In this document: in pieces, positions 1-6,581 of the stretch
How the letters are laid out: each line of letters starts with the position of its first letter
Position numbering within the stretch: position 1 is the stretch's first letter
Assembly (NCBI GenBank): GCA_024635755.1
Contig: JAGXIF010000012.1
Location: 1 to 32,969 of the forward strand
Length of the DNA stretch: 32,969 bases
Reading direction: 5' to 3'
Origin: Halothiobacillus sp.
GTDB lineage: Bacteria > Pseudomonadota > Gammaproteobacteria > Halothiobacillales > Halothiobacillaceae
Made by a program: the position numbers and the translations under genes
The notes under the pieces: model-generated
The model's input: only the letters and a program-made list of their open reading frames with translations
The model's database searches: none
What the model was told of the DNA's origin: nothing

Positions 1-2
1 AA

Positions 3-110
3 CGGTGGAGCGGCAAGACGAGAGCCTGGTCGCCGATCGGCGAGGTCTGGCTCAACCCGGACCCGCCGGCGGCGGAACCCGCCCAGGAAATGAGAGGCCG
101 GGCAGCCTAG
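3..110 (+). CDS. C-terminal fragment of an unrecognised protein, cut by the window edge
   Basis: An open frame enters from the left and stops with TAG at 108-110, giving 35 residues that begin RWSGKTRAWSPIGEVWLNP and end in a proline/alanine-rich tail. I do not recognise the family. It sits just upstream of the DUF3892-like frame on the same strand inside the comM island, so it may be the preceding cargo gene. The fragment is too short to assign a function, and an overlapping frame starting at GTG 5 is also open, so the choice of frame is uncertain. Confidence 0.3.
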   Translation, partial: RWSGKTRAWSPIGEVWLNPDPPAAEPAQEMRGRAA

Positions 111-381
111 AAATCACGACATCTTTCTTGACAAACGTCGTGATGGAGACATCACCGCTCTTTGCAATCGCAGTCAAGCTGGCCAAGGCTGGTCACCGCG
201 CCCTAAGGCCAAAGCCATTCGGGACATCGAGAGTGGTGTGTACCAGTACTACGTCGGCCTAAACGATGGGAGCCGAGCCATCATTAAGGTGGTAAATGGC
301 TCCTCCGGCAAGTACCTCAGGACTAGCTGGGACTCCACCAGTCGAAACAATCTTGATGATCTTCCGGACTGTGCCGGGTAA
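94..381 (+). pseudogene. DUF3892-like small protein, no usable start codon in frame
   Basis: The frame is open from 94 (after a TGA at 91-93) to TAA at 379-381. It encodes a recognisable DUF3892-type protein: an N-terminal DIFLDKRRDGDITALC segment, a central AIRDIESGVYQYYV segment, then GKYLRTSWDST and NNLDDLP near the end. DUF3892 proteins are small and have no defined function. No ATG, GTG or TTG lies in frame before the conserved part. The ATG at 90-92 is in another frame that ends at the TAG at 108-110. Loss of one base near 107-109 would join that ATG to the DUF3892 frame, so a frameshift, or less likely a sequencing error or rare start codon, is the simplest reading. It ends 17 bases before the DUF2188 gene and would share its transcript. 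Confidence 0.55.
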
Positions 382-2570: not shown

Positions 2571-2616
2571 TGTCGCATCTATTTCCGAAATGTCGCACCA
2601 ATTGCGATAACTGACA
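2571..2616 (-). repeat. Transposon end with spaced TGCGACA repeats (candidate transposase-binding sites)
   Basis: Read on the minus strand from the comM junction, the element begins TGTCAGTTATCGCAATTGG. It then carries TGCGACA at 2597-2591 and again at 2577-2571, exactly 20 bases apart, each preceded by a purine-rich TGG or AGA. Tn7-family ends carry several roughly 20-22 bp transposase (TnsB) sites and begin with TGT, so two regularly spaced copies at the very edge fit that design. The site assignment is by pattern only. Confidence 0.6.
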
Positions 2617-2621
2617 ACCGC
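2617..2621. repeat. ACCGC, one copy of the presumed 5-bp target-site duplication
   Basis: These five bases belong to the comM glycine codons and directly touch the TGT end of the island. Tn7-family insertion duplicates 5 bp, and I recall ACCGC as the AbaR duplication in comM. The partner copy must lie outside the window, so duplication is not shown here. Confidence 0.6.
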
Positions 2622-3480
2622 CGCCGATCAGGGCCACGGCGGAGGCCGAATGGTGGGGGCTGCGAAACGGCCGCCGGCCGAAACGCCGCGGCTCGAACCC
2701 GCCGGGCGTGACGGCCGCGACCTCTGCAGCGGCCAGGGCCTCCGCCTCGGTCATCGGCGGCAGGATGCCGGCCAGTCGCAGGGCCAGCATGCTCTTGCCC
2801 GCCCCGGGCGGACCGATCAGCAACAGATTGTGTGCGCCGGTGGCGGCGATCGCCAGGGCCCGCTTGGCACGCGGCTGGCCGCGCACATCGGCCAGATCGC
2901 CGTCGGCCGCGGGATCGATCGGCGGCGGCGCGACATGCTCGAGCGCCTGCAGCTCGCGTTCGCCGGCGAGAAAGCCCACCAGCTGGGACAGGTGGTTCAC
3001 CGTGTAGCCGCCGCACGCCGGGGGTCAGTTGCGCCTCGTGGCGGCCTGCCTCGGGCAGGATCAGGCAGCGTCTGGCATCCCGTGCGGCACGGGCCGCGGA
3101 CAGGGCGCCGCGAATCGAGCGGATGCTGCCATCCAGCGACAGTTCGCCCAGGCATTCGACTTGGCCGAAGCGGTCCTGCGCACTGGCGGGCAACTGGCCG
3201 GTGGCGGCGAGAATGGCCGCCGCGATGGCCAGGTCGAAACGGGCGCTTTCCTTGGGCAGGTCGGCGGGGGCGAGGTTGACCGTCAGGCGCCTTGGTGGGA
3301 ATTCGAAGCCCGAGGAGAGGATGGCCGCGCGCACGCGGTCGCGGGACTCGCGTACCGCGGTTTCGGGCAGGCCCACCAGCGTGAAGGCGGGCAGCCCCGG
3401 GGCCACACGTGGGCCTCGACGGTTACCAGCGGGGCGTCAATGCCCAGTAGGGCACGGCTGTGAATCTTGGCGATCGGCAT
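2617..3480 (-). pseudogene. comM: comM (yifB) 5' remnant, interrupted by the island and frameshifted twice
   Basis: ComM is a hexameric AAA+ branch-migration helicase that helps integrate DNA during natural transformation; intact proteins are about 500 residues. The remnant covers roughly the first 285. It starts at ATG 3480 with IHSRALLGIDAPLVTVEAHV. The frame changes near 3404, where GTG is followed by an extra TG, and resumes with APGLPAFTLVGLPETAVRES and LAPADLPKESARFDLAIA. It changes again near 3010-3030, before NHLSQLVGFLAGEREL. The Walker A segment LLLIGPPGAGKSMLA and PFRSPHHSASAVALIGGG follow, and the island begins right after the glycines. The Walker B/sensor and C-terminal parts are missing. 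The gene cannot make a working helicase. Adjacency to ubiK is the usual chromosomal arrangement. Confidence 0.93.
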
Positions 3481-3510
3481 GTCCGTATGCCTCGATGGTC
3501 ACGGGAGTTG

Positions 3511-3530
3511 GCCGGGCATCCATGCCCGGC
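3511..3530. repeat. Perfect 9-bp inverted repeat between ubiK and the comM remnant
   Basis: GCCGGGCAT and ATGCCCGGC flank a 2-base CC centre. The hairpin lies after the ubiK stop and before comM on the minus strand. No T-run follows on either strand, so it is not a standard intrinsic terminator. It could slow or stabilise the ubiK transcript end. Confidence 0.5.
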
Positions 3531-3548
3531 ACGGACGAAAATGGCGAA

Positions 3549-3833
3549 TCAGCTGGCCAGGTCGCCTTCTTCCGACTCGGGCGGCCGGCCGTTATGCCGG
3601 GCCTCCATTTCAGCGACCCGTTGCTCGAGAATTTCGAGTTTGGCGCGCGTGCGGGCCAGTACCTGGGTCTGTACGTCGAATTCCTCGCGCGTGACCAAGT
3701 CCATGCGCGAAAAGCCGTTGCTGACCGCTTGGCGCACGGCCTTCTCGAATTCCTGCTTGCCCTCGCGCATGCCGTCGGGCATGGCCTGTTCGATGCGCTG
3801 GGAGATCTCTTCGATCGTGTGGGTGATGGACAT
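3549..3833 (-). CDS. ubiK: UbiK (YqiC) ubiquinone-biosynthesis accessory factor
   Basis: This 94-residue BMFP/YqiC family protein acts as an accessory factor for aerobic ubiquinone synthesis, thought to assist UbiJ and the Ubi complex near the membrane. The N-terminal helix (THTIEEISQRIEQAMP) is amphipathic. The C-terminal half (REEFDVQTQVLARTRAKLEI to about residue 80) is a heptad coiled coil typical of the trimeric family, with an acidic tail. The start at 3833 is chosen because GAGG precedes it and it matches the family length; the frame stays open further upstream without homology. It lies just upstream of comM on the same strand, a common pairing. Confidence 0.9.
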   Translation of the reverse strand: MSITHTIEEISQRIEQAMPDGMREGKQEFEKAVRQAVSNGFSRMDLVTREEFDVQTQVLARTRAKLEILEQRVAEMEARHNGRPPESEEGDLAS

Positions 3834-4198
3834 CTCGTTACCTCGGTCTGGCTCACCGTCGAACCGGGCGGGCCCGGGCCTTCGAGCCCGTTCGGGCTCC
3901 ATGGAAACCCGATTGTTGGGGATAGATCGCCCGGATGCAAATACGGTCGGGTTGGATGGCGCCGCTGCATCCATCCGTGCCGCTGCGGGTCGGCTGTGCG
4001 GGGACGGCCTCGTTCTGCACCAAATCAGGGAGGTGGTGTGAAATGCGGGCCCCAATATGGGGAGGAGGGCTTTTCCCGCGTCACCCTTTCTCGTCTGAAA
4101 TATCGTCTAACATGCTGTTAAAAAATAGGAAACAGAACATGGCACGCCGGATGCTTTACGAGGGGCGAACCCGAACGTTCACTTGTGGAGCACAGATC
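3834..4198. promoter_or_regulatory. Divergent control region between ubiK and the porin-glnK-amtB operon
   Basis: These 365 bases hold no convincing gene. A short perfect hairpin (GAGCCCG-TT-CGGGCTC, 3884-3899) lies in the probable ubiK leader. An imperfect inverted repeat (TGCACCA at 4016-4022 and TGGTGTG at 4034-4040) lies about 100-125 bases upstream of the sigma-54 promoter. That is the distance expected for NtrC enhancers, but the half-site spacing is not the usual one, so it is only a weak candidate. An AT-rich stretch follows at about 4100-4135, where IHF-type bending would be plausible. Confidence 0.45.
4140..4155 (+). promoter_or_regulatory. Sigma-54 (RpoN) promoter for porin-glnK-amtB
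   Basis: TGGCACG, four bases, then ATGCT: this is the RpoN -24/-12 consensus (TGGCACG-N4-TTGCW) with one mismatch. The essential GG (4141-4142) and GC (4153-4154) are separated by exactly ten bases. The expected start of transcription near 4166 is about 33 bases before the porin ATG. RpoN with NtrC drives glnK-amtB in many proteobacteria, so the context supports the motif. Confidence 0.82.
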
Positions 4199-4918
4199 AT
4201 GAAAAAGACCCTTATCGCAACCAGCATCGCCTCGGCCGTCAGCCTGTCGGCCCTCACCCTGCCTTCCATCGCTGCCGCCGAGGTTTCGGCCAACATCGGT
4301 GTGGTTTCCAACTATCTGTTCCGTGGCGTCACCCAGACCGACGACAGCGCGGCTGTCCAGGGTGGTCTCGACTACGCGCACGAGTCCGGCTTCTACGCGG
4401 GCACCTGGGCGTCGACCGTCGATTTCGGGGCGGATGCCGCCAACTACGAGCTGGACCTGTACGCCGGCTACGGCGGCAGCGTCGGCGACCTGAGTTACGA
4501 CGTCGGCTACGTCTACTACGCCTACCCGGATTCCCCGGACGACATCGACTTCGGCGAGATCTACGGCTCCCTGACGTACAGCTACCTGACCGCCGGTCTG
4601 GCGTACACCGCCAACGGCCAGGCTGACGCCGGCCCGTTCATCCAGGGCGACCTGTACTACTACGCCGGCGTTGACGTGCCGTTCGCCGACACCGGCTTTA
4701 CCGGCAGCCTGTACTACGGCTACTACACCTTCGAGGACGATGGTAAGCCGGCCTATGGTGATATGGACTACGGCCACTGGACCGCGTCCATCGCGAAGGA
4801 CGCCGGTGATTTCGGTTCGTTCAATATGAACTTCGAAATGGCGGATGTCAGCGCGAATAACTTCGTTTCGACCAACGACGACCTGCAGGTCTGGGTCGGC
4901 TGGTCCAAGAGCTTCTAA
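4199..4918 (+). CDS. TorF-family putative outer-membrane porin
   Basis: The 239-residue product starts with a clear signal peptide (MKKTLIATSIASAVSLSALT, cleavage after about AAA at residues 23-25). The mature part opens with a segment containing SNYLFRGVTQTDDSAAVQGG, characteristic of the TorF/gcw_chp family. The rest alternates tyrosine- and glycine-rich strands and ends in a strand closing with phenylalanine (WVGWSKSF), as expected for an outer-membrane beta barrel. Family members are predicted porins with unproven substrates. The start at ATG 4199 is fixed by GGAG at 4186-4189 and the signal peptide. It lies directly behind a sigma-54 promoter and 64 bases before glnK. A role in letting ammonium or small nitrogen compounds through the outer membrane under nitrogen limitation is inference. 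Confidence 0.88.
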   Translation: MKKTLIATSIASAVSLSALTLPSIAAAEVSANIGVVSNYLFRGVTQTDDSAAVQGGLDYAHESGFYAGTWASTVDFGADAANYELDLYAGYGGSVGDLSYDVGYVYYAYPDSPDDIDFGEIYGSLTYSYLTAGLAYTANGQADAGPFIQGDLYYYAGVDVPFADTGFTGSLYYGYYTFEDDGKPAYGDMDYGHWTASIAKDAGDFGSFNMNFEMADVSANNFVSTNDDLQVWVGWSKSF

Positions 4919-4931
4919 AGCATTCCTCTAA

Positions 4932-5321
<390 letters not shown>

Positions 5322-5336
5322 GCGGAGGATTTCACC

Positions 5337-6581
<1,245 letters not shown>

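Follow-up and report, generated by a model that had tools for sequence, protein, structure and literature searches.

Evidence for a Tn6022-Type Transposon in comM of the Halophilic Sulfur-Oxidizing Genus Guyparkeria

Results

Junction and comM Remnant

The window, by which we mean the whole stretch of 32,969 nucleotides analyzed here, is contig C24 of its assembly from the first base, and its left end carries the remainder of an insertion sequence, two cargo genes, a long gene on the minus strand, a pair of short repeats and a TGTCA terminus that abuts a truncated comM (Table 1). Positions 2612–2621 read TGACA|ACCGC, and the boundary between comM and foreign sequence proposed in the original prediction is confirmed at 2616/2617, with two 15-bp repeats of the TnsB type behind the TGTCA end. 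Read on the minus strand, comM extends from an ATG at 3480 as far as the third codon of a Gly-Gly-Gly motif at 2617 and then gives way to TGTCAGTTATCGCAATTGG; the bases straight after this third glycine codon are TGTCAGTTATCGCAATTGGTGCGACATTTCGGAAATAGATGCGACA. End, site and repeats are all read directly from the window. The G+C content is 56% in the foreign part (142–2616) vs. 65.5% in 2617–32969. For the repeat GNAATNGNTGCGACA, present in two exact copies, the chance mean is 0.14 and none of 100 shuffles had two copies, a post hoc comparison in that the motif was first taken from these sequences. AbaR islands duplicate ACCGC. The ACCGC touching the boundary in the window, which the original prediction had pointed out, lies where the target duplication is expected, and the string has no occurrence in the main texts of PMC7253598 and PMC12904642.

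Table 1. Features at the left end of the window.
Position	Strand	Feature	Evidence
1..141	+	3' end of IS3-family insertion sequence; cuts into the island and ends the contig	98–100% identity with sequence that opens contigs C40, C28 and C47 of this genome
142..381	+	DUF3892 cargo gene, truncated by the IS at its 5' end	74% identity with its complete counterpart in the congener's element, where Pfam recognizes PF13031
399..635	+	DUF2188 cargo gene	83% identity with its counterpart in the congener, where Pfam recognizes PF09954
662..2503	-	tnsE homologue, 613 aa; start codon TTG, with ATG at codon 7 as an alternative	AlphaFold2 model, Foldseek matches; 65% identical to the congener's
2571..2585	-	TnsB-type repeat 2 (GAAATAGATGCGACA), predicted binding site	Motif scan; motif also present at each end of the element in the congener
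2591..2605	-	TnsB-type repeat 1 (GCAATTGGTGCGACA), predicted binding site	Motif scan
2612..2616	-	Transposon terminus TGTCA	Read from sequence; homologous terminus in locus L041
2617..2621	.	ACCGC (comM strand: GCGGT), where a 5-bp target duplication is expected; sole copy in the assembly	Sequence; congener shows both copies (GCGGC on the comM strand)
2617..3480	-	comM 5' part, 864 bp, two frameshifting indels	PF13541 and PF01078 positions 1–96 of 207; alignment to unbroken congener comM

In what remains of comM, Pfam matches the N-terminal domain of ChlI and Mg_chelatase from its first position up to 96 of 207. It had been described as reading normally up to the three glycines; the break after the third glycine codon stands, but the frame does not, given that alignment to the unbroken comM of congener G008 (89.9% identical) reveals a 2-nt indel near codon 24 and a 1-nt indel near codon 157, and translation from the ATG meets a stop at codon 66. 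The corresponding remnant in the congener Guyparkeria sp. SCN-R1 is still open over 287 codons, a difference that might reflect an older insertion, faster decay or assembly errors in the window. An assembly join at 2616, raised beforehand as an objection, is unlikely, since a homologous junction interrupts comM at this very codon in the independently sequenced SCN-R1.

Left Edge of the Window

Positions 1–141 recur at the starts of three other contigs of the genome and encode the end of an IS3-type transposase; therefore, the contig stops at a multi-copy insertion sequence that cuts the DUF3892 gene. The slightly longer copy in C28 encodes 55 amino acids, whose plasmid relatives are annotated in several records as IS3 family transposase, and for which NCBIfam gave no match. 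To the left of this edge, the original prediction had expected the other end of the island, with the comM 3' half, a second duplication, an inverted TGTC and tnsABC. The window's own assembly did not yield them: the comM C-terminal domain (PF13335) was not found, a TnsB protein search returned nothing, no DNA resembled the tns module of the congener, and a DNA search with the congener's comM 3' half and flank gave three short, weak matches only. All of them are, however, present in one contig of SCN-R1.

The absence of the left half of the island and of the comM 3' half is most simply explained by a gap, because the assembly is 87.86% complete. Alternatively, the IS3 copy would have deleted the DNA next to it, the tns module and the comM 3' half included, so that tnsE and one end stay behind as a dead, stranded remnant. 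The absences themselves, the cut through DUF3892 and the two indels in comM would all fit such a deletion, but a missing contig explains the same absences in an incomplete assembly that breaks at a multi-copy repeat, and the congener's DNA beyond the comM 3' half likewise matches the assembly only shortly and weakly, which points to a gap, even though a deletion could have reached that far. We therefore regard a dead remnant as unlikely, and a gap as the simpler account.

The 613-Amino-Acid Protein

Sequence searches offered little on the product of the minus-strand gene: Pfam gave no match even at E 10, the one NCBIfam match was far below the cut-off (E 0.012), and sequence-only PDB searches with the TnsE and TnsF profiles returned nothing credible. 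An AlphaFold2 model built from 21 sequences (mean pLDDT 81.6, pTM 0.82) has a TnsE-like fold. Its seven best Foldseek PDB matches are C-terminal domains of TnsE (5d17, 9d5l, and 5d16) with E from 2.4e-4 to 1.2e-3, probability 1.00 and a TM-score by target of up to 0.67, followed by a next match at E 0.045; the similarity to TnsE is limited to a C-terminal domain of some 160 residues and does not extend over the whole protein. The PriB domain, expected in the N-terminal part of TnsE (PMC10293859), appears only at E 1.1. Judged from this model, the protein is a TnsE homologue with a TnsE-like C-terminal fold, in agreement with the placement of tnsE on the opposite strand in Tn6022 elements (PMC10293859, section 11) and with the near universality of TnsE homologues among elements that target comM (PMC11406308).

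A Complete Element in Guyparkeria sp. SCN-R1

The genome of SCN-R1 (G001) carries an element of 10,908 bp on NZ_QZMT01000014.1 (contig C14) that starts with TGTCA, ends with TGACA and has GCGGC on both sides. Parts of comM flank it, with PF13335 at C14:43568–43846, and joining the flanks restores an open comM frame, which reads ALIGGGSHPAPGEISLAHH. Both the duplication and the gene set are observed directly: TnsA, TnsB, TnsC and TniQ were recognized by Pfam (PF08722/PF08721, PF09299, PF05621, and PF06527, respectively), with a short TniQ of about 361 amino acids, and the counterpart of the window's 613-aa gene encodes 608 amino acids on the strand opposite to the tns operon. The end repeats number six (two with one mismatch), four on the TnsA side and two at the other end. 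The remaining contents are an IS3 element, DUF3892, DUF2188 and a 138-aa ORF. With its TnsABC-TniQ genes, TGTCA ends and GCGGC duplication, this element supports the proposal of a Tn7-family island with AbaR/Tn6022 insertion specificity in this lineage.

In the position of TnsF lies a protein of 478 amino acids with many conserved Cys pairs. Aligned with its counterpart in an A. baumannii plasmid element, it shows 37% identity over 467 columns. A TnsF would be expected to combine zinc fingers at the N-terminus with a C-terminal part resembling tyrosine recombinases. Its model (pLDDT 72.9, pTM 0.38) had no PDB match at E 0.001 or better; the best of the weak matches were the JADE1 PZP (E 0.09), LIM domains (from E 0.13) and an integron integrase (E 1.1).

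No antibiotic-resistance family was found among the ORFs scanned in the SCN-R1 element (Pfam, and NCBIfam on some), and no resistance gene was recognized in the right part of the element that the window holds; the reading as a resistance island was therefore rejected.

Insertions within Guyparkeria

Among ten congeners of this gammaproteobacterial genus, the island is present in SCN-R1 and the site is unbroken in six (G002, G003, G005, G006, G008, and G010), and no match was obtained in G004, G007, and G009. The window's comM is nearest to the unbroken copy of G008 (above) and is 78.9% identical to that of SCN-R1, and the comM of SCN-R1 is in turn 90.2 and 88.6% identical to the unbroken copies of G003 and G002. 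A midpoint-rooted mnmG tree of nine of the 11 genomes, leaving out G004 (no match) and G007 (part only), groups the window's genome (G000) with G008 (100/100) and SCN-R1 with G002 (90/96), and requires two changes of the island label, also when well supported branches only are counted. Because each of the two elements belongs to a branch of its own, where the closest relatives sampled have an unbroken comM, the site has, on these comparisons, probably been entered twice in Guyparkeria.

Alternatively, both elements might descend from one old insertion in the ancestor of the genus that was lost without trace in the other lines. Their common site and common cargo order (DUF3892, DUF2188, tnsE) are what a single event would leave, but each broken comM is nearest to unbroken ones and the mnmG tree needs two changes, so that we consider one ancestral insertion quite improbable and favor two separate ones.

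Relatives of TnsE and TnsF

Relatives of both proteins are rare in the 369 genomes of the class that were searched, with three matches for the 613-aa protein (its own genome, the congener and a remnant in G294) and four for TnsF; a scan of viral contigs alongside these searches gave no relative. The G294 remnant (locus L028, 1249–1716) is a 155-aa ORF that matches the TnsE C-terminus (residues 553–611, 44%), and the transporter-like ORF beside it resembles, by eye, one near the Halomonas TnsE. Locus L030 of G145 (1–1791) has a single frame of 596 amino acids from a GTG (690 open) in which, by eye, a TniQ-like part is joined to TnsF-like zinc fingers, resembling the single TniQ-TnsF fusion mentioned in PMC10293859.

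The plasmid database holds a TnsE relative in 32 records, 14 of them over at least 80% of its length, and a TnsF relative in 70. All five records that were examined (from Methylobacter, Halomonas, Pseudomonas and Acinetobacter) have both relatives in one stretch, with the tnsE relative broken into pieces in the P. veronii and Halomonas records. Four of these stretches (L034, L036, L037, and L038) have no comM match, whereas the Halomonas element lies in comM at codon 289. The latter (L035, Halomonas sp. PA16-9 p_unnamed1, 3384–6058) has the comM 5' part beside a window-type TnsE in two frames; the record is labeled a 1.8-Mb plasmid and may be chromosomal. The co-occurrence on plasmid records fits a plasmid-directed role but does not prove it.

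When the TnsE alignment was used to scan named genomes, 27 loci emerged. Fifteen of them have, on the TnsE side, a comM 5' part that stops at codon 288/289; its distance from TnsE is at most about 0.9 kb in 11 and 6.8–7.9 kb in four Acinetobacter. The bases TGT directly follow the third glycine codon in 13 of these 15 right ends (L043 and L055 differ). Besides the four Acinetobacter, the hosts include Acidithiobacillus, Microbulbifer, several Burkholderiales MAGs and a MAG labeled Deltaproteobacteria. The AbaR target site had thus been named correctly, as the four Acinetobacter loci break comM at the same codon. A comM 3' part lies on the TnsA side in two further loci (Pandoraea captiosa and Pseudomonas reinekei). 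No break is visible in the other ten: in eight, the DNA examined yielded no comM match, L042 has comM codons 1–109 only, and the tenth is L067. In this last locus (Acinetobacter haemolyticus CIP 64.3, 6–599), about 9 kb from the TnsE relative, the comM copy is unbroken at the site, since its match (codons 119–326) runs through it.

Discussion

What interrupts comM in this Guyparkeria species is very likely a Tn7-like transposon of the Tn6022 (TnsF) type, whose cargo-side end lies in the window. Since the SCN-R1 element agrees with the published system in its five genes, in their order and in the type of insertion point, TnsF-type targeting, as known from the work of Faure and colleagues and described in PMC10293859 and PMC11406308, is the best explanation for it. 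The roles of TnsF, TniQ and TnsABC are inferred from published work on the Acinetobacter johnsonii Tn6022, and the reading of the comM Walker B region by TnsF was published in 2023 (PMC10293859). By analogy, TnsF would act through TniQ to locate the conserved stretch of comM that encodes the Walker B region, and TnsC would recruit TnsA and TnsB. These two would cleave at the TGTCA termini and join the termini to comM behind the third Gly-Gly-Gly codon, always at the same point; the joining would duplicate 5 bp and break comM. TnsE, encoded just inside the end, might serve a second route onto conjugating plasmids, a route for which the mechanistic data come from Tn7 itself only, according to a review. 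In the window's genome, an IS3 copy later interrupted the island, and comM carries frameshifts.

Tsy elements (a tyrosine recombinase and HTH genes with TnsF, and no Tn7 genes) and CRISPR-associated transposons are both reported to target comM (PMC10293859, PMC11406308), but it is hardly conceivable that either accounts for the Guyparkeria insertions, given that the congener's element has TnsABC-TniQ, a 5-bp duplication and end repeats, and that no tyrosine recombinase or cas family was matched in the ten ORFs scanned by Pfam.

The proposed Tn6022-type element can be compared with several known systems. Tn7 and the Guyparkeria element have a common transposase logic. They are also alike in the C-terminal fold of TnsE; unlike Tn7, which targets glmS and uses TnsD/TnsE, the Guyparkeria type would select its target by TnsF with a short TniQ, and this target lies inside comM and is broken by the insertion. 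A close parallel is Tn6022 of Acinetobacter (AjTn6022; the AbaR backbone), which is alike in its gene order (TnsA-TnsB-TnsC-TniQ-TnsF), in carrying TnsE on the opposite strand, in being inserted in comM and in its 5-bp duplication. However, the Guyparkeria proteins are about 26–56% identical to those of the A. baumannii pC13-2 plasmid element, the recognized cargo consists of DUF3892, DUF2188 and IS elements with no recognized resistance gene, and the host is a halophilic sulfur oxidizer. The plasmid-record elements likewise have TnsF together with a window-type TnsE, but mostly differ in having no comM match in the stretch. Tn6929 of Acinetobacter variabilis, as described in PMC12904642, is also inserted in comM with a 5-bp duplication, and the first 11 bases of its left repeat TGTCATATACT are common to the TnsA-side end of the Guyparkeria element, whereas the rest of the repeat, the duplication (GCCAC) and the cargo differ.

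The mechanism is already in print, and what we describe is a new host rather than a new system. Our literature search found no published report of this element in Guyparkeria, and the two Guyparkeria genome papers make no mention of transposons, Tn7, genomic islands or mobile elements. The additions are the host genus, a complete element in a congener, the TnsE-like gene of the window, the comM frameshifts and the evidence for repeated insertion. At 10.9 kb, the SCN-R1 element is compact and complete, in a non-clinical genus whose sampled relatives include unbroken comM, and offers a setting in which to study TnsF targeting and the TnsE of this branch.

The comM site known from AbaR islands is an entry point in environmental proteobacteria too. 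It seems fairly likely that Tn6022-type transposons are active in halophilic, sulfur-oxidizing Guyparkeria, where they would have inserted at least twice at the same site and kept the terminal TnsE as a second, plasmid-directed route; if so, loss of comM recurs in environmental bacteria far from the clinic.
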